Source of the DNA: Sphingomonadaceae bacterium
GTDB taxonomy: Bacteria; Pseudomonadota; Alphaproteobacteria; Sphingomonadales; Sphingomonadaceae
DNA length: 64,000 bases
Assembly: GCA_025056155.1 (NCBI GenBank)
Contig: JANWWL010000001.1
Span: 186,001 to 250,000, forward strand
Direction: 5' to 3'
The notes below the pieces were generated by a model, which was not told where the DNA came from, made no database searches, and saw only the letters and a program-made list of their open reading frames with translations. This document shows, piece after piece, positions 17,125 through 24,764 of this stretch. Within the stretch, counting starts at the first letter, position 1, and every line of letters begins with the position of its first letter. The position numbers were made by a program, and so were the translations under genes.

Positions 17125-17820
17125 CTATTCGCCCCCGGCCGGCAACAAGCGCCAACGCGCGGCCGTCACCTGCGGTTCGAGCGAAAGCCGGCCGATGATC
17201 TGTTCGATGGAGGCGTCCCCCGGCCCAGGGCCCGCGACTTCGGCCTCGACCTCGATCCGGTCGGACCCCTCGATGTTCTGGCTGTCGAGCCGGCGCAAGC
17301 GCAGGCCCGCCGCCGACACGCCTTGCAGCAACAGCGCCCGGACGTGGGCTTCGGCCTCGCCGCGGCTGACGACGGTGACGAGATAGCTGCGGTCGCCTTC
17401 GGGGGCGGGTTGGGCCTGGATGAAGCGCAACACGGGCCGCAACGCGACGTTGACCAGGATCACGAGCGCGGCGGCGATGGCGGCCCGGTCCCAGGCGCCG
17501 GCGCCGGCCAACAGGCCGACCGCGGCCGAGCACCAGAGCGTGGCGGCCGTGTTGAGCCCCCGGACGTTCACCCCTTCGCGGAAGATGATGCCGGCTCCCA
17601 GGAAGCCGATGCCTGAGACGACCTGGGCGGCCACGCGCGTGGGGCTGGCCTCGCCGGGGAAGAGCTCGGCGAAGACGACGAAGCTCGCGGCCCCCAGCGC
17701 CACTAGCGTGTTGGTGCGCAAGCCCGCCAGGCGCTGGCGCCACTGCCGCTCGAGGCCGATGGCCGCCCCCAGCCCCAGGGCGACCCCGAGGTTGGTCGCA
17801 GCGTCCAGAAGTTCCGGCAT
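17125..17820 (-). CDS. mgtC: MgtC/SapB family inner-membrane protein
   Basis: This 231-aa protein has an MgtC-type membrane domain with the signature GLGAAIGLERQWRQRLAGLR, then TNTLVALGAASFVVF, GIGFLGAGIIFREG and NTAATLWCSAAVGLL. A C-terminal ACT-like cytoplasmic domain follows. MgtC proteins are linked to growth at low magnesium and to control of ATP synthase in Salmonella; many bacterial homologues are uncharacterised. It is the last gene of a leftward set after mgtE and a barrel protein, 58 bp downstream of the latter. The magnesium theme of the operon supports the assignment. Confidence 0.88.
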   Translation of the reverse strand: MPELLDAATNLGVALGLGAAIGLERQWRQRLAGLRTNTLVALGAASFVVFAELFPGEASPTRVAAQVVSGIGFLGAGIIFREGVNVRGLNTAATLWCSAAVGLLAGAGAWDRAAIAAALVILVNVALRPVLRFIQAQPAPEGDRSYLVTVVSRGEAEAHVRALLLQGVSAAGLRLRRLDSQNIEGSDRIEVEAEVAGPGPGDASIEQIIGRLSLEPQVTAARWRLLPAGGE

Positions 17821-17878: not shown

Positions 17879-18646
17879 CTAGAAGCGCACCGCGACCCCC
17901 AGGGTCGCCCAGGTGGAGCGTTCGCCCGCCAGATTGTGGCTGGCCACCAGTTCCAGGTCGACCTGGCCCCCGGCGATCGTGGGCCTTAGGCCCAGTTGGA
18001 AACCCGGGCCGAAGCCCTGGAGGCCAAAGACCTCGGCGTGGAGCGTCAGCCGGTCGGGCACGAGCGTGGCCTCGGCCCGAGCCCCGACCGTGAGCGCCCC
18101 CCGCCCCTCGGCTCCAAGGCGCGTCCAGCCCAGGTTGCCGTGAAGCAGCAGCCGCTCGCGCACCAAGAAGCTCAGGATCCCGTTCAGGATGACGTCGTGG
18201 GCGCTGCCTCGGTCGAGGCCCAGGCGGGCGCCGGCCGAGGCGGCGAGCCCCCAGTCGCCCACCTCTTCAACCGCTGCGGAGAGCAAGAACTTTCCCTGAA
18301 GCTGGAGGCCCGTGGCCCGGGCGCCGGCATCCCGGCCCGTGTCGAAGCCCAAGGTCCACTCCGCCCAGGGCAGGCGCGGCAGCGTCGTGGCGGGCAGCAG
18401 GATCCACAGGTGGCCCCGACGGGCGAGCGACATCCAGCTTTCGACCTGCCCCGCCCCCGCGGGCGTGATGGCGGCGTCGTCCACTGCATAGGGGCCGCTG
18501 GCGCAGGCCGGTCCGGCGGCGGCCGGCGCCATGCCGACCAGCGCCATCCGGACCGCCCCAGCCGCGCGGTGGAGGTGCCGCCGGGCCGTCGCCACGGCGT
18601 GGAGGATACGGGCGGCCAGGGCCGACCTCCGACGGTCCAGCGCCAT
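17879..18646 (-). CDS. Putative outer-membrane beta-barrel protein in a magnesium operon
   Basis: This 255-aa protein has a hydrophobic N-terminal region ending near PAAAGPACASG, plausibly a signal peptide, and a body of alternating strands. Examples are WMSLARRGHLWILLPAT, TGLQLQGKFLLSAA and LLHGNLGWTRLG, ending in phenylalanine (TLGVAVRF) as outer-membrane proteins do. I do not recognise a named family; it resembles small transporter-like or phenol-degradation-MetA-type barrels. ATG at 18646 has AAGGAG about 6 bases upstream. It lies between mgtE and the mgtC-like gene, 30 bp after mgtE, so co-transcription is likely. A role in passing divalent cations through the outer membrane is inference only. 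Confidence 0.65.
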   Translation of the reverse strand: MALDRRRSALAARILHAVATARRHLHRAAGAVRMALVGMAPAAAGPACASGPYAVDDAAITPAGAGQVESWMSLARRGHLWILLPATTLPRLPWAEWTLGFDTGRDAGARATGLQLQGKFLLSAAVEEVGDWGLAASAGARLGLDRGSAHDVILNGILSFLVRERLLLHGNLGWTRLGAEGRGALTVGARAEATLVPDRLTLHAEVFGLQGFGPGFQLGLRPTIAGGQVDLELVASHNLAGERSTWATLGVAVRF

Positions 18647-18676: not shown

Positions 18677-20056
18677 TCAGCCGATCAGCTGGTCGCCCAG
18701 GAAGGCGTAGGCGAAGCCGAAGTAGATGAAGACCCCCAGCAAGTCCATGACCGACGTGATGGTCGGAGCGGACAGGGTCGCCGGGTCGGCCTTGAGTGCT
18801 CGACCGATGAAGGGCAGCACCAAGCCGACGAGACTGCCGACGACGGTGACCACCAGCATCGACAGACCTACCACCAACAGCACGTCTGCGCCCGGGGCCT
18901 TGCTGAAGTGGGCGAGAACCGCTTCGAGGAGCGCGATGGTCACCCCCAGGGCGGCGGCGACCGGCAGGTCGCGCTTCAGGAGGAAGGCGAAGTCGCGCCA
19001 GCGCAGCTTCACCTGACCCAGCGCCATGGCGCGAATGACGAGGGTCGCCGACTGGCTTCCCGTGTTGCCGCCCATGTCGATGATGGGGGCCACGAACGCC
19101 GCCAGGATGATCGCCTCTTCCAACAGCGCCTCCTGGTTGGCGACGAAGGTGCTGGTGAGGATGCCGAAGAACGTGAGCAGGATGAGCCAGAAGACCCGCT
19201 TCGAGAACATCTCGCGGAAGGGTGAGCGCACGACGTCGATGTCGGGCCCGCCGAGGCTCGCCGTGCCCCCGAACTGCGTGAGCCGCCGCGCCAGCGCCGT
19301 CTGGGCCACGTCGAGCGCGTCGTCGACGGTGACGATGCCCACCAGGGCGTCCCCGCCGTTCACGACGGGAACGGCCAGCAAGTCGTATTGGGCGATCGTC
19401 TCGGCCACGGCCTCGCGCGGGTCGTCGACCCGCACGAAGACCACCTCGCGGGTCATGATGTCGGCCACCCGCCGATCGGGCGGAGCGAGCAGCAGGTCGC
19501 GCAGCGACACCACGCCCACCAGCCGCCGGTCGGCGTCGATCACGTAGGCGTCGTAGATGGTCTCGCGGTCGGGCGCCTCGGCGCGCAGTCGGTCGATGGC
19601 CTGGGCGGCGGTGAGCTCGGGCGACAGGACGGCGTAGTCCGACGACATGATCGAACCCGCCGTGCCTTCGGGATAGGAGGCGAGCCGGCGGATGTCCTCG
19701 CGCTCGGCCGCGGCCAGACCGGGCAGGATGGCGTCGCGCTCGTCCTCGGGCAGGTTCTTCCACAGGTCGGCCCGCTCGTCGTGGGGCATGTCGCGGAAGA
19801 GCTGCTGCAGGGCCACGCGCGGCAGGGCGCGTGCGATGCGCAGCTGGAGCTCGGGGTCGAAGTAGCCGAAGGCGCGCGCCGCCACGGCCGGCGGCAGGGC
19901 GGCCACGACGCGCGCGGCCTCGTCCGCCTCCAGCGCGGCCACGCTGCGGGCCAGGTCGGCCGGCGGCAGGGGTGACAGCAGGCGCTGCAGCGTCGCGAAG
20001 TCCCGACGCGCCAGCAGGGCGCCTAGATCCGTGTCGGTGACCAGGGTCGTCGTCAT
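18677..20056 (-). CDS. mgtE: Magnesium transporter MgtE
   Basis: This 459-aa protein has the full MgtE layout. An N-terminal superhelical domain (LFRDMPHDERADLWKNLPED, about residues 10-135) is followed by two CBS domains (about 140-265) and five transmembrane helices. The membrane part has the selectivity-filter region FVAPIIDMGGNTGSQSATLV and the helix-5 segment PTITSVMDLLGVFIYFGF. It is a homodimeric Mg2+ channel gated by cytosolic Mg2+ through the N and CBS domains. ATG at 20056 has AGGAG about 7 bases upstream. It heads a set followed by the barrel and mgtC-like genes. It is preceded by an unusually structured leader with a small ORF, described separately. Confidence 0.95.
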   Translation of the reverse strand: MTTTLVTDTDLGALLARRDFATLQRLLSPLPPADLARSVAALEADEAARVVAALPPAVAARAFGYFDPELQLRIARALPRVALQQLFRDMPHDERADLWKNLPEDERDAILPGLAAAEREDIRRLASYPEGTAGSIMSSDYAVLSPELTAAQAIDRLRAEAPDRETIYDAYVIDADRRLVGVVSLRDLLLAPPDRRVADIMTREVVFVRVDDPREAVAETIAQYDLLAVPVVNGGDALVGIVTVDDALDVAQTALARRLTQFGGTASLGGPDIDVVRSPFREMFSKRVFWLILLTFFGILTSTFVANQEALLEEAIILAAFVAPIIDMGGNTGSQSATLVIRAMALGQVKLRWRDFAFLLKRDLPVAAALGVTIALLEAVLAHFSKAPGADVLLVVGLSMLVVTVVGSLVGLVLPFIGRALKADPATLSAPTITSVMDLLGVFIYFGFAYAFLGDQLIG

Positions 20057-20123
20057 GCTCCGTCTCCTGAGGCTCGAGGCCCGCGGAGACGGGCCCGGCC
20101 GCCTCCGCGCCTAGCGTGGGGAC

Positions 20124-20152
20124 GCGGCCGCACCGTCGCCCGGTGCGGCCGC
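20124..20152 (-). promoter_or_regulatory. Perfect 11-bp hairpin between the small ORF and mgtE
   Basis: GCGGCCGCACC and GGTGCGGCCGC form a perfect 11-bp stem with a 7-base loop, about 68 bp upstream of the mgtE start and just after the small ORF stop. No T-tract follows on the leftward strand, so it is not a classical terminator. It could act as a Rho-related or translational control element in the mgtE leader (inference). Confidence 0.5.
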
Positions 20153-20183
20153 CCGCGTTCGACCGGGATCCATCACGCCCCCC

Positions 20184-20423
20184 TCAAGCCGCGGCCACGC
20201 GCAGCAAGGGATGCAGCGCGCCCGTCGACCGACGCGGCGCCCGCGTGGGCTCCGACCTGCGGGGCTCAGGGCGCCGGGCGGGCAGGAACCACGGTTCCGC
20301 CACCTCGCGCCAGCGGGCCTCGAGGCCGCGACCGTCGGCCGCCGGCACCCAGAAGCATTCGAGCCGGGGCCGCCGAACGACCGCCCGCGCCACACCCAGG
20401 GGGAAGCGATCGATGCGCACCAT
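20184..20423 (-). CDS. Small ORF (79 aa) in the mgtE leader, perfect Shine-Dalgarno
   Basis: A 79-aa ORF starts at ATG 20423 and is preceded, four bases away, by AAGGAGGTGA (20428-20437), a perfect match to the anti-Shine-Dalgarno. The first 40 residues are protein-like (MVRIDRFPLGVARAVVRRPR, then LECFWVPAADGRGLEARW), while the remainder is rich in Pro and Arg. I do not recognise a family. No signal peptide or membrane segment is visible. It ends 127 bp before mgtE in the same orientation, with a strong hairpin in between. It may be a genuine small protein or a regulatory leader peptide, by analogy with the MgtL and MgtP leader peptides of enterobacterial magnesium transporters. The sequences are unrelated. 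Confidence 0.55.
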   Translation of the reverse strand: MVRIDRFPLGVARAVVRRPRLECFWVPAADGRGLEARWREVAEPWFLPARRPEPRRSEPTRAPRRSTGALHPLLRVAAA

Positions 20424-20454
20424 GGGGTCACCTCCTTTCCGCTTCCGGGCGGCG

Positions 20455-20546
20455 GAGGGACCCCGCGGGGCTACGACCCGCGCGACACCCTCGACCGGCC
20501 GGAAGCGCAGGCGGGAGCCGAAGCTCCCCGGTTACTGCCGTCTTCC
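20455..20546 (-). promoter_or_regulatory. Structured 5' leader of the small ORF/mgtE transcript, two stacked stem-loops
   Basis: Read on the minus strand, the first element (20546-20501) nests GGAAG/CTTCC, GCAG/CTGC and GGGAGC/GCTCCC around a UUCG tetraloop closed by C-G, an exceptionally stable RNA loop. The second (20492-20455) pairs GAGGG/CCCTC outside CGCGGG/CCCGCG with a 7-base loop, and ends 17 bases before the perfect Shine-Dalgarno. The UUCG orientation indicates transcription leftward. It does not match the M-box or other riboswitches I know. It could be a cation-sensing leader, but no ligand can be assigned. Confidence 0.5.
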
Positions 20547-20667
20547 GTCATCCTGTCCTCAGGGTTGAACCGCCCGACGAGTCGGGCCGCGCGCAGGTGG
20601 GCCCGATCCCAGGGCTTGTCAACCCGCCGGCTGGACGGACGGACACCGGCCGCCTAACGGCGGACCC

Positions 20668-21119: not shown

Positions 21120-23234
21120 ATGCGAAACTGGTTATGGTGCGGGGCGGCGGCGGCCGCCCTGGCGATCACCGCGCCCGCGCTGGCCCAAGGGGTCGGCAAC
21201 CGGGTGACCTTGGACGAGATCGTGGTGACGGCCCGCAAGGTCCCGTCGCGCACCGCGCTGTCGGATGCCGAAGCCCGCCGCCGGCTCGAGCAGGTGCCCG
21301 GTGCCATCGGCTTCGTCGAAGCGCGCGGCTTCGCCGACGATTTCACGCAGAGCCTGGGCGATGCCCTGCTGTGGACCCCGGGCGTGTTCGCCGACACGTC
21401 AGCCCAGCGCGAGAATCGCATCTCGATCCGGGGCTCGGGCCTCAACTCCACCTTCGAGCGCCGGGGGCTCACCGTCTTGCGCGACGGCGTGCCCATCACG
21501 CGGGCCTCGGGCTCGACCGAGTTCCAGGAATTCGAGCCGCTGACGGTGGCCCGGATCGAAGTGTTCAAGGGGGCCAACGGTCTCAGGTGGGGCGCGGCCT
21601 CGCTGGGCGGGGCCATCCACGTCGTGTCGCCTACGGGCCGTACCGAGCCGCAACGCTTGGGGCTGCGCGTGGAAGGCGGAAGCTTTGGTACCGTGCGCGG
21701 CAGCCTGCAGGCCGGCGGCCAGAGCGGCCGGGGCGACTGGTGGGTGGGGGTGACGGCGCTCAAGAGCGACGGCTACCGCGAGCACAGCACCGTCGACAGC
21801 CTCTACGGCTTCGCCAACGTCGGCCTGGACTTGTCCGACCGCGTCGAGACCCGGTGGTATCTCACGGTCCTTCAGGACAATTTCGAGTTGGCCGGCGGCC
21901 TGTCGCTGGCCGATGCCCTGGCCAATCCGCGCCAGGCCGGCCGGCCCGTCGTCGTCCGGCCGCCCGGGCGCCCGCCCATCGTGCTCGATCCCGGCCCGGT
22001 GACCGACGACTGGGATCGCAACCTGGGCGTGCTGCGGTTGGCCAACCGCACGGCGATCGACCTCGGCGGCGCGACGCTGGCCGCCGGAGGGTGGGTCGCG
22101 CACCGCGCGTTGGACCATGCCATCACCCGCTTCGCTGGCATCATCGACCAGAAGGAAGGCGAACTCGGGGTCTTCGCGGAACTCGGCAATCTGGGGTTCG
22201 CCGAGCGACGACCCCTCGAATGGGTGGTGGGCGCCTGGGCGCACGCCGCCAACAACGACGCCCGGACCTGGACCAACGTCTCCGGCCGGCGAGGGACGCT
22301 CAGGAACTGGTCGGATCAGGATTCGGCCAACGCGACCGCCTATGCTCAGTTGGACGCGGCGCTTTCCGCGCGGCTGAGGATGGTGGGCGGGCTTCAGTTC
22401 CACGCCGCCCGGCGCGCCGTGGACGCCCGGCTCAACGCCGTGTCCGGCCGGCGCACCTATCGGCAGCTCAACCCCCGCATCGGCGTGCTCTGGACGCCCG
22501 CGCCCACCGTCCAGGTCTTCGCCAACGCCGCGCGCAGCTTCGAGCCGCCTTCGATCGCGGACCTGACGGCGGGCGGGGCCTTCCCCTTCGCCCCGCTGGA
22601 ACCGCAGCGGGCTTGGACGGGGGAAGTGGGCGCCCGCGGCCAATTGGGGCCTCTCGCCTTTGACCTCGCCTACTATCGGGCCCGAGTGCGTGACGAGTTC
22701 ATCGACCTGCTGGCGCCCAACGGCCTCAACTCGTTCACGACGAACGCCCAGGGGCGCACCCTCCACCAGGGCGTGGAAGCGGGGTTCGACCTGTTCCTCG
22801 AGCGCGGCGCGTCCCGCGGCGCCGTCGATGTCGTGCTAAGGCAAGTCTACACGTTCAACGACTTCCGGTTCACGGACGATCCGCGCTTCGGCGACAAGCG
22901 CCTGGCCGGCGTGCCCCGCCACGTGCTGGCGGCCGAGGCGCGCGTGGACGGTGCCGGGGGTTGGTATGGCGGCGTCAACGTGCGCTGGGTGCCGGATGGT
23001 CCCTTCGTCGACTATGCGAACACCACCCAGGCCCCGGGGTACCATCTGTGGGGCCTGACGGCCGGCTGGCGAATCGACCGACGCTTCATGCTGTTCGCTT
23101 CGGTCGAGAACCTGTTCGACAAGGTTCACATCTCGAACGTCTCCACCACGGCCGACCAGTCGCGCGAGCGCGCCCCCGCCTTCACCCCCGGCCAGGGGCG
23201 CGCGGCGTTCGGGGGCCTGTCGGTCCGCTTCTGA
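21120..23234 (+). CDS. TonB-dependent siderophore/metal receptor
   Basis: This 704-aa protein has a signal peptide (MRNWLWCGAAAAALAITAPA, then LAQG), a TonB box (LDEIVVTARK), and a plug domain with ISIRGSGLNSTFERRG and VARIEVFKGANGLRWGAASL. A barrel follows, ending in phenylalanine (AAFGGLSVRF). Near the C-terminus, FASVENLFDKVHISNVS is a common receptor motif. It probably imports a ferric siderophore or metal chelate, because a PepSY membrane protein gene (often an iron-siderophore reductase partner) follows 12 bp downstream. The precise ligand cannot be read. ATG at 21120 gives a normal signal peptide. No Fur box is apparent upstream by eye. Confidence 0.92.
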   Translation: MRNWLWCGAAAAALAITAPALAQGVGNRVTLDEIVVTARKVPSRTALSDAEARRRLEQVPGAIGFVEARGFADDFTQSLGDALLWTPGVFADTSAQRENRISIRGSGLNSTFERRGLTVLRDGVPITRASGSTEFQEFEPLTVARIEVFKGANGLRWGAASLGGAIHVVSPTGRTEPQRLGLRVEGGSFGTVRGSLQAGGQSGRGDWWVGVTALKSDGYREHSTVDSLYGFANVGLDLSDRVETRWYLTVLQDNFELAGGLSLADALANPRQAGRPVVVRPPGRPPIVLDPGPVTDDWDRNLGVLRLANRTAIDLGGATLAAGGWVAHRALDHAITRFAGIIDQKEGELGVFAELGNLGFAERRPLEWVVGAWAHAANNDARTWTNVSGRRGTLRNWSDQDSANATAYAQLDAALSARLRMVGGLQFHAARRAVDARLNAVSGRRTYRQLNPRIGVLWTPAPTVQVFANAARSFEPPSIADLTAGGAFPFAPLEPQRAWTGEVGARGQLGPLAFDLAYYRARVRDEFIDLLAPNGLNSFTTNAQGRTLHQGVEAGFDLFLERGASRGAVDVVLRQVYTFNDFRFTDDPRFGDKRLAGVPRHVLAAEARVDGAGGWYGGVNVRWVPDGPFVDYANTTQAPGYHLWGLTAGWRIDRRFMLFASVENLFDKVHISNVSTTADQSRERAPAFTPGQGRAAFGGLSVRF

Positions 23235-23246
23235 GCGCGATCGCCC

Positions 23247-24764
23247 ATGACCCACACCCTTGCCCGACGTCGGTTGGACGGCCGGCTGCTGGCCATCCGC
23301 TGGCACCAGCGCCTGGCCTTGCTCGGCGCCCTGGCCCTGATGCTGTGGGGGGCCTCCGGCCTGCTGCACCCCGTCATGACGAGCTTCGGCCCGCAGCAGG
23401 CCGTGTTCCTGCCCCCGGCCCGGCCGATCGACCTGGGCGCCATGCGACCGGTGGCCGACATCCTGGCCGAGGCCGGCGTCACGCGGGCGCAGCTCGTCCG
23501 CATCGTGACGGGACCCCAGGGCAACCTGCTGCAGGTGACCGAGCGCGAGAGGGAGGTCCCGCGCTATTTCCGGCTGGACGACGGACGGGAGCTGCCCGGC
23601 CACGACCGAGCGCAGGCCGTCTGGCTCGCGCGGCACTACTCGGGCCTTGCCCAAACGCCCGTGGCGTCGGTCGAGCGGATCGAGGGCTTCTCGGCCCGCT
23701 ACCCGGCCGTCAACCGGCTGCTGCCTGTCTGGCGGGTCACCTTCGACCGATCCGACGGACTTTCTTACGTCGTCCACACCGAGACGAGCGCGGTCGCGGC
23801 CGTCGACGATCGCGTCAAGCAAAGGCTGCAGACCGCCTTCCAATGGGTGCACACCTTAAGCTGGCTGCCGCGTGGGGCCGAGCCTCTCCGCGTGGCCTTG
23901 ATTTCGCTGGCGGTGGGCTCGCTCGTCGTGCTTGCCATTAGCGGGATCGCGATGCTGTTCCTCATTCGCCGTCGCAGCCGGCCCACGGGCGTGCGGGGCT
24001 GGCACCGCACCGCGGCCTGGGCGCTGGCCGTGCCCCTGTTCCTGTTCGCGGGCAGCGGCCTGTTCCACCTGTTCCAGCACGCGGGCGAGGTGCCGGCCAC
24101 AAACCTCCGCCTGTCGCCGCCGGTCGACGTCGCCACGGCCGATCCCGGCCTGCCCACGCGCCTCGCCCAGCTGACGGGTGGCGGGCCCGTCAACGCCCTG
24201 TCGCTGGTGGCCGACGGGCGGGGTGTCCTGCTGTACCGTATCGAGCCGGCGCGGCCTCAGGCCACCGCGCCCGCCACCGCTGCGGCCATTCGCGCCGCAC
24301 GGTTCGCCGGCGCCCCAAGGTCCGAGCCGCCGATCTACGTCGAGGCCGCCACGGGGCGGGTGCGCCCCGACGCCGACCGGGCGCTCGCCCTCGACCTTGG
24401 CCGGCGCTTCACGGGGCTGGGGCCCGAGGCCGTCGAGCGGATGGAGCTCGTAACTCGCTTCGGCCCGCTCTACGATTTCCGCAACAAGCGCCTGCCCGTA
24501 TGGCGCCTCGACTACGGCCCACCGGTCTCGGCCACGCTGTTCGTCGACACGGCCACCGGCGTGCTGGTCGACGTCGTGGCGGACGCCGCCAAGCCCGAGC
24601 GGTTCAGCTTCAGCTTTCTCCACAAGTGGAACTTCCTGTTCCCCTTGGGCCGCGACGGGCAGAACGCGGTGGTGGCGGCCGTGGTGCTGGCGCTAATCGG
24701 GTTCATGGCGTGGCTCGGGCTCCGCATGGATCTCGCCCGCCGCGCGGCCCGACGGCGGCGCTAG
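23247..24764 (+). CDS. PepSY-associated transmembrane protein
   Basis: This 505-aa inner-membrane protein of the PepSY_TM family has four transmembrane helices. They lie near LLGALALMLWGASGLLH, ISLAVGSLVVLAISGIAMLF, WALAVPLFLFAGSGLFHLF and VVAAVVLALIGFMAWLG. Periplasmic PepSY-type domains lie between them, with paired RRFTGL/ARHYSGL-like segments. Several such proteins act as inner-membrane or periplasmic reductases of ferric siderophores (FoxB-type), passing electrons through hemes ligated by membrane histidines. Histidines are present here in RWHQRLAL and GWHRTAAW. It begins 12 bp after the TonB receptor stop and is certainly in the same unit. Confidence 0.85.
   Translation: MTHTLARRRLDGRLLAIRWHQRLALLGALALMLWGASGLLHPVMTSFGPQQAVFLPPARPIDLGAMRPVADILAEAGVTRAQLVRIVTGPQGNLLQVTEREREVPRYFRLDDGRELPGHDRAQAVWLARHYSGLAQTPVASVERIEGFSARYPAVNRLLPVWRVTFDRSDGLSYVVHTETSAVAAVDDRVKQRLQTAFQWVHTLSWLPRGAEPLRVALISLAVGSLVVLAISGIAMLFLIRRRSRPTGVRGWHRTAAWALAVPLFLFAGSGLFHLFQHAGEVPATNLRLSPPVDVATADPGLPTRLAQLTGGGPVNALSLVADGRGVLLYRIEPARPQATAPATAAAIRAARFAGAPRSEPPIYVEAATGRVRPDADRALALDLGRRFTGLGPEAVERMELVTRFGPLYDFRNKRLPVWRLDYGPPVSATLFVDTATGVLVDVVADAAKPERFSFSFLHKWNFLFPLGRDGQNAVVAAVVLALIGFMAWLGLRMDLARRAARRRR

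Follow-up and report, generated by a model that had tools for sequence, protein, structure and literature searches.

What kind of control acts on mgtE in this Sphingomonadaceae genome? The gene encodes a magnesium transporter and lies on the minus strand of the window, the 64-kb stretch of DNA that was analysed as a whole, downstream of a leader with several stem-loops in which a first-pass annotation had proposed a new cation-sensing element. In this work, we found that the leader appears to consist of tiny genes whose translation probably gates the mgtE ribosome-binding site, and not of a metal-binding RNA. We give a probability of about two in three to the reading that two leader peptides (uORFs) in tandem act here as an attenuator for the translation of mgtE. 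From 5′ to 3′, the leader contains a TTGACA box, uORF1, a hairpin masking a Shine-Dalgarno sequence (SD), ORF2, uORF3, and two mutually exclusive hairpins ahead of mgtE:

20594-20622, minus strand: promoter-like element, with -35 TTGACA at 20622-20617, a 17-nt spacer, and a weak -10 CACCTG at 20599-20594
20471-20551, minus strand: uORF1, 26 codons, MTEDGSNRGASAPACASGRSRVSRGS and stop, starting MTEDGSNRG (direct reading)
20501-20546, minus strand: nested stem-loops in uORF1, inner loop C(UUCG)G at 20513-20528 (direct reading and folding)
20424-20464, minus strand: hairpin GGGGUC-CCUCC...GGAGG-UGACCCC over the SD of ORF2, -29.0 kcal/mol
20184-20423, minus strand: ORF2, 79 aa, an Arg/Pro-rich small protein or long leader (ORF calls)
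20111-20173, minus strand: uORF3, 20 codons, MDPGRTRAAAPGDGAAASPR and stop, the leader ORF adjoining mgtE, starting MDPGRTR (direct reading)
20124-20152, minus strand: 12-bp perfect hairpin GCGGCCGCACCG-ggcga-CGGUGCGGCCGC in uORF3 (direct reading)
20082-20109, minus strand: antisequester, CGCGGAGGCGG (20109-20099) with CCGUCUCCGCG (20092-20082), 11 bp, -21.0 kcal/mol
20057-20094, minus strand: sequester, CCGUCUCC (20092-20085) with GGAGACGG (20067-20060), -23.5 kcal/mol
18677-20056, minus strand: mgtE, magnesium transporter (TIGR00400, PF01769, PF03448, CBS)

The identity of mgtE is given by TIGR00400, matched at 329 bits versus a cut-off of 233. Reading the minus strand directly gave three small ORFs upstream of it (uORF1, ORF2, and uORF3). 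The first-pass annotation had described a single one; ORF2 is indeed present, and two more were found, namely, uORF1, which holds the UUCG hairpin, and uORF3, which holds the perfect hairpin before mgtE. The latter hairpin is at 20152-20124 and has 12 bp by our own count instead of the 11 reported; a terminator scan found no intrinsic terminator, and this hairpin is without a T run. The nested stem-loops with the inner C(UUCG)G were confirmed on the minus strand at 20546-20501, where the outer stem GGAAG/CUUCC (20546-20542 / 20505-20501) encloses GGGAGC-UUCG-GCUCCC (20528-20513). The strong SD (AGGAGG) that had been noted ahead of the small ORF was also found as described, preceding ORF2, and the SD of uORF1 is weak (gaggacagg).

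The sequester hairpin masks the mgtE SD (AGGAG, 20068-20064), and its 5′ arm can pair instead with the segment past the uORF3 stop (-21.0 vs. -23.5 kcal/mol). This alternative arm, 20109-20099, begins directly past the stop codon, and the antisequester duplex has a z of -2.1 at the window locus. By bare folding energy (-96.3 kcal/mol over 20600-20420; z -1.79, with 7 of 200 shuffles equally good), the leader differs only slightly from what DNA this rich in GC would give. The window leader rises above chance because the same layout with diverged sequence is found in Thermaurantiacus and, partly, in others.

Among the matches listed, the nearest named relative is Thermaurantiacus tibetensis (Sphingosinicellaceae; locus L059), with an mgtE that is 69% identical. 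This locus has counterparts of uORF1, ORF2, and uORF3 although the DNA scarcely aligns: 12 of 25 aligned residues are identical to the window in the uORF1 counterpart (MDEGSSLGAEAP...), 35 of 72 in that of ORF2, and 12 of 20 in uORF3 (MDPGPARPAALPFGAAGALTQPRRDG, MDPGPARPAA...). Its uORF1 holds a GGGCGC-GGAA-GCGCCC hairpin at a position matching the UUCG hairpin, and its uORF3 holds GGCCGCGC...GCGCGGCC where the window has the 12-bp hairpin. Between the two ORF2 sequences, base differences by codon position are 28/28/40, a mild coding constraint by which ORF2 is possibly a genuine small protein; no match to it was found in Pfam or NCBIfam. The pattern RLE..W...RW.EVA.PWF.P is common to ORF2 and its Thermaurantiacus counterpart.

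Besides the leader itself, a DNA similarity search returned short weak matches only (best E 5e-4). One of the weak matches is a true counterpart, the SD region of the Thermaurantiacus locus, and since it reached only E 0.003, the DNA search alone was insufficient to find that counterpart. A protein search with the small ORFs over 59 genomes gave matches in seven genomes at E ≤ 0.01, of which one is a convincing counterpart (G002, the genome that also gave the DNA match at E 0.003) and the others were mostly judged from the table. Two small-ORF matches (L023 and L024) were rejected on inspection, as neither is an ORF of this type. None of the related loci was found in viral contigs, or in plasmids at E ≤ 1e-60.

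A third genome of the genus (L031) has a uORF1 of similar style (MDDQSRG...) followed, by eye, by an SD-masking hairpin, and the same order was seen in three loci of Geminicoccaceae (MGSHGRSRPG in L060, MDSHSRSRPG in L063, and MDSHGRSRPG in L064). In these Geminicoccaceae relatives, uORF1 and ORF2 are present and the acidic uORF3 is absent. The arms of the hairpin over the ORF2 SD, also compared by eye, are GGCCACC/GGUGGCC in L059, CUCGGGUC/GACCCGAG in L060, and CACCUCC/GGAGGUG in L067 (Rubritepida). All seven sequences examined (the window, L059, L060, L063, L064, L031, and L067) have a TTGACA or near box 71-77 nt upstream of uORF1, the variants being TTGACC in L031 and TTGATC in L067; a generic sigma-70 scan did not detect the promoter-like box of the window. 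Judging from this box in the window and six relatives, transcription probably starts upstream of 20551 rather than downstream of 20455; the first-pass annotation had named a start at the latter place as one that would refute its leader.

Downstream of mgtE, the run continues with two genes:

17879-18646, minus strand: 255-aa protein without Pfam or NCBIfam match
17125-17820, minus strand: MgtC/SapB-family protein (PF02308 and PF21770 over cut-off; NF011912 at 204 bits, below its cut-off of 255)

Because the run contains mgtE plus an MgtC/SapB-family protein, at least two of its genes are Mg2+-related by their family matches. The 255-aa protein apparently lies beside mgtE in Thermaurantiacus too, where the gene after mgtE encodes 222 aa with a comparable stretch (ASGPYA.DD...TPAG); by eye, the 255-aa protein looks exported. 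Divergent to the mgtE run, 21120-24764 holds a gene for a TonB-dependent siderophore-receptor-like protein (TIGR01783, below cut-off) and then one for a 505-aa protein that has no NCBIfam match and that we take, by eye, to be PepSY-like.

Similar Asp/Pro/Ser-rich ORF starts precede mgtE in part of the alpha-, beta-, gamma-, and deltaproteobacterial relatives. Examples include MEDGSSRL (Phyllobacterium), MDEGSSPA (Rubritepida), MDPDPGRS (Pseudomonas sp. 8O), MDPDPGACTGD (Aeromonas), MDVPSSRP (a Gammaproteobacteria MAG), MDLPSSRP (Alishewanella), MDPIPSPR (Ferrimonas), and MDDEGGSP (Desulfotignum). To quantify this pattern, a profile scored the first residues of each 9- to 60-codon ORF lying within 600 nt upstream of mgtE in 93 regions, which comprise 78 of 80 loci from the best 80 of 372 relatives, loci of further genomes, and the window; L084 (8 bases upstream only) and L127 (near-duplicate) were left out. 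In a cleaned test with two-fold cross-validation, for which strands were corrected, near-duplicates taken out, and seeds drawn only from the training half, 23 of 89 mgtE regions scored at least 8. Among the controls, this score was reached by 0 of 89 antisense regions, 1 of 445 Markov sequences, and 2 of 84 downstream regions. At a score of at least 10, the counts were 18 of 89 versus 0 antisense, 0 Markov, and 1 downstream. An earlier and less clean run, which took its seeds from both halves, gave 30 of 93 at the threshold of 8 (0 of 92 antisense, 6 of 459 Markov, and 2 of 85 downstream). The later profile-based calls for the structure, codon, residue-count, ATPase, and further-locus sets use this first-run profile, not retrained, with a family cut of 6.5. 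The near-duplicate pairs L060/L139, L063/L142, L064/L143, and L100/L146 remain in the structure, codon, cross-clade, and residue-count sets.

When the profile of one clade was applied to the other, 4 of 33 alphaproteobacterial and 8 of 60 other regions reached 8, versus 1 of 222 other genes in each case; at 10, the counts were 4 of 33 and, with the alpha-trained profile, 0 of 60. Of 47 leaders, 39 carry Asp or Glu as the second residue, and the window ORFs start MTED (uORF1) and MDPG (uORF3). With a score of 5.5, the window uORF3 is below the cut, and its place in the class is suggested by its Thermaurantiacus counterpart, which scores 10.5, and by the layout. The leader start lies at -95 to -210 from mgtE in 47 of 54 cases, lengths are about 10-46 codons, and the four leaders more than 430 nt away (L064, L124, L143, and L144) were set aside as probable false hits. 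The leaders of L144, L145, and L149 score 6.6, 15.4, and 17.4. As a side observation, L145 and L149 (G466, contig 16) are two same-strand mgtE copies about 0.8 kb apart, with their own acidic leaders MDDPSRRS and MDDDPSSP.

An even draw of 398 Pseudomonadota genomes gave 9 more mgtE loci, of which only 2 have the leader profile, and among the ordinary, distant mgtE genes of the window's order it was found in 1 of 26 scanned, weakly (L058, 7.8). For this reason, the leader is, as far as these sequences tell, a companion of one branch of mgtE genes, with a patchy distribution inside that branch. A whole-leader codon test on 10 close, partly overlapping pairs gave 75/73/68 changes at positions 3/2/1. 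There is no third-position excess, and any selection on the peptide must therefore be limited to the first few codons.

The folding of these loci is consistent with a masked mgtE SD. In leader loci, the SD has a median unpaired probability of 0.19 (n = 54) versus 0.37 in 357 other genes from these loci (p 5e-7), and mgtE loci without a called leader, among which the window was placed owing to its score, lie in between (0.31, n = 39). For a structure set of 48 loci (the 47 leaders at -90 to -215 plus the window), the SD is inside a local hairpin in 43, which form the complementarity set. Complementarity between the final 45 nt of the leader and the anti-SD arm exceeds expectation (mean z -0.93, 8 of 43 below -1.65); the mean is -0.27 when arms are taken from other loci (p 6e-5) and -0.20 when DNA preceding the leader is used (p 3e-4). 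In 26 of 43 loci, a gap of 0-10 nt separates the leader stop from the 5′ arm of the SD hairpin, and a local hairpin tends to follow the conserved start, with a mean z of -0.58 (s.e. 0.10, n = 48) for the 40-nt segment at +10. Under equilibrium folding of the 48 loci, a simulated ribosome had no consistent effect on SD exposure, whether placed early in the leader, midway along it, or at its stop. The rival hairpins are predicted to be near-isoenergetic; kinetics would have to decide between them, and these models do not establish a switch on thermodynamic grounds alone.

Compensatory changes were looked for with RNAalifold in six groups of related leaders, run without a shuffle control. Two-sided changes were found in 5 of 28 pairs in Rheinheimera/Alishewanella (two in the rival pairing; 7 of the pairs broken in at least one sequence), 7 of 29 in a deltaproteobacterial group (three in the SD hairpin and inner stem; 15 broken), and 5 of 48 in the Desulfotignum group (two in the SD hairpin and inner stem; 14 broken). 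The Ferrimonas consensus, which is without the SD hairpin, has one of 17, outside that hairpin (8 broken). None was found in L102/L107 (0 of 33; 0 broken) or in uORF1-ORF2 of the Geminicoccaceae (0 of 45; 14 broken), where the consensus is the rival pairing. Compensatory changes, whose absence the first-pass annotation had named as a refutation, thus occur in helices of some related groups and not in all. That the hairpins belong to a regulatory leader of mgtE is supported by these comparisons of sequences.

Leaders of this type were also found ahead of mgtA-type genes. We scored 28 upstream regions of P-type Mg ATPases (from 30 TIGR01524 matches over cut-off), and the mgtE-trained profile picked out the MgtL-like MDPDPTPHPRWSNLSFR and MEPDPSPDPVMTGIIR (13.3 and 10.5); the genomes carrying them, counted as one family, are probably enterobacterial by peptide. 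Scores of at least 8 were reached in 3 of 28 regions, in none of the 28 antisense ones, and in 1 of 280 Markov sequences, the third match (L167, TTG start) being doubtful. MDEASSRF, which scores 7.0, starts a 43-codon ORF ahead of an mgtA-type ATPase (L152/L156, G580, family f199) and has an internal hairpin of -19.6 and an SD hairpin of -27.9 kcal/mol. The pattern ATGGACNNNNNNAGTAGTCG has 3 matches in 398 genomes, this ORF among them, and its reversed control has 16 by our own count. This pattern itself is not enriched, and the context alone makes the MDEASSRF match convincing. Two other matches of the pattern scan (L151 and L153) were judged to be chance.

A further feature of the class is the choice of serine codon. 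In codons 2-10 of 50 leaders, 58 of 88 serine codons are AGT, where the way in which the adjacent mgtE genes encode serine would predict 7.3 (s.d. 2.4). AGT is present in 38 of 47 leaders, first at codon 5-7 in 37 of the 38, and the preference holds even in GC-rich genomes (e.g., L067, L079, and L129). The window uORF1 has AGT at codon 6 (20536-20534), and the window uORF3 is without it. Since the arginine that follows is written CGN or AGR, the peptide seems to matter too. Slow wobble decoding is one guess for the bias, and a base-level motif is another. We put forward, as a tentative and rather improbable proposal, that a family of mgtE leader peptides extends across several proteobacterial classes and Desulfo- lineages, also reaching some mgtA genes, with AGU-serine decoding as part of the Mg2+ sensor. 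Under this proposal, the AGU would stand 5-7 codons in, after Asp/Pro and before a hairpin, and the ribosome would sense Mg2+ through codon-anticodon stability together with the acidic nascent chain.

What we observed for the tandem attenuator are the uORFs, a uORF class ahead of a subset of mgtE genes, and an SD hairpin with a rival pairing. From these we infer that the uORFs are translated, that Mg2+ is the signal, and that drop-off is the cause; by analogy with mgtQ and mgtL, the system would be ON at low Mg2+. In this mechanism, uORF1 would control the masked SD of ORF2, and uORF3 that of mgtE. From its footprint size, a ribosome positioned at the stop of uORF3 would cover 20109-20099, such that completion of uORF3 would let the sequester hairpin form and turn mgtE off. 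At low Mg2+, the acidic/Pro start of the nascent leader peptide would destabilise the ribosome and lead to early drop-off, with the downstream hairpin possibly aiding as a roadblock. Drop-off would then free 20109-20099 for pairing with the anti-SD arm, and mgtE would be translated.

Among known systems, Salmonella mgtQ, located between mgtC and mgtB, is an acidic uORF of 8 aa, and its abortion lets an alternative stem form that frees the mgtB ribosome-binding site (PMC8092293). Like mgtQ, the present leaders have a short ORF, with a start that is acidic in most of the class, rival stem-loops, and the ribosome-binding site of a Mg2+ transporter gene masked in the last of these (PMC8092293). 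Unlike mgtQ, which is described as lying within its operon and acting on a P-type ATPase, they have about 10-46 codons and stand ahead of mgtE, and the window differs further by its tandem leaders, the AGT signature of the class, and a second small ORF. In the class, the N-terminal Asp/Glu-Pro motif just past the start resembles that of mgtL ahead of mgtA in E. coli and Salmonella, where the EPDP motif is reported to cause drop-off at low Mg2+ and so to spare mgtA from Rho (PMC11282234). However, mgtL is described as working through a Rho-dependent terminator (PMC11282234), whereas the visible output here is the SD hairpin. The tandem attenuators mgtM and mgtP of Salmonella mgtCBR (PMC3641672; PMC8092293) likewise have two short ORFs in series in the leader of one Mg2+ operon (PMC3641672); as described, those act on transcription elongation, and the likeness is one of layout. 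By design, the leader would work like mgtQ or mgtL, and we assign it to neither, knowing it here from sequence alone. A literature search, mostly outside subscription papers, did not find mgtE leader peptides in Proteobacteria described in the accessible texts; the nearest description was that of the Thioalkalivibrio "mgtE motif" (PMC11109978).

The alternative that survives best is a leader-peptide attenuator with another signal or the opposite polarity, e.g., a ribosome at the uORF stop melting the SD hairpin (translational coupling), or a stall on Ser/Pro tRNA charging or another cue. The short distance from leader stop to SD hairpin in 26 of 43 loci means that a terminating ribosome could open this hairpin, and the excess of AGT hints at a decoding signal. 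We nevertheless regard this alternative as considerably less probable, given that the targets are mgtE and mgtA-type Mg2+ transporters, that the acidic/Pro starts match mgtQ and mgtL, where abortion is described as switching the transporter on, and that the 3′ ends of the leaders show complementarity to the anti-SD arm.

The M-box (ykoK) riboswitch is a Mg2+-responsive leader of Mg2+ transporter genes. A riboswitch for Mg2+ or another ligand, with its own aptamer, would likewise account for a structured leader, an SD in a switchable hairpin, and a Mg2+ transporter as target. Also, the Thioalkalivibrio "mgtE motif" is described, in the accessible text, as a riboswitch candidate ahead of mgtE with SD and AUG in a large stem (PMC11109978), a likeness to the present leaders (position upstream of mgtE, SD in a stem) that we compared by description. 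However, unlike the M-box, neither the window nor the 20 related loci matched a riboswitch model: the Rfam 15 covariance models gave 0 matches at gathering score in the 64-kb window and two tRNAs only over the related loci, in agreement with the earlier remark that this leader is unlike known Mg2+ leaders. Moreover, the part that loci have in common is a start codon with a few codons after it, heading an ORF, and no long conserved unpaired core was seen in the six group alignments. A riboswitch is therefore very improbable, and the cation-sensing element first proposed is disfavoured, with small-ORF starts and no aptamer as the conserved core and a design that matches mgtQ and mgtL. That nothing here is regulatory, the hairpins and short ORFs being chance products of GC-rich DNA and ORF2 a small operon gene, would fit the fold z-score of only -1.79, the weak score of the window's own leader peptide, and the coding constraint on ORF2, but it is just as improbable in view of the same ORFs with diverged sequence in Thermaurantiacus, the 71-77 nt spacing from box to uORF1 in all seven sequences, and the signal of the family, which stands out from the antisense, Markov, downstream, and other-gene controls.

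The design of the proposed tandem leader-peptide attenuator resembles the Salmonella magnesium leader peptides and, from the sequences compared, also seems to recur upstream of mgtE in quite a few other bacteria. If this reading is true, ribosome abortion on acidic leaders would control Mg2+ uptake beyond the enterobacterial P-type ATPases, and would be a recurrent device ahead of one mgtE branch across Proteobacteria. Structured mgtE leaders that have been regarded as riboswitch candidates may then be leader-peptide attenuators. The family would also provide natural variants for testing what lets a nascent chain destabilise the ribosome, including why one synonymous serine codon persists.
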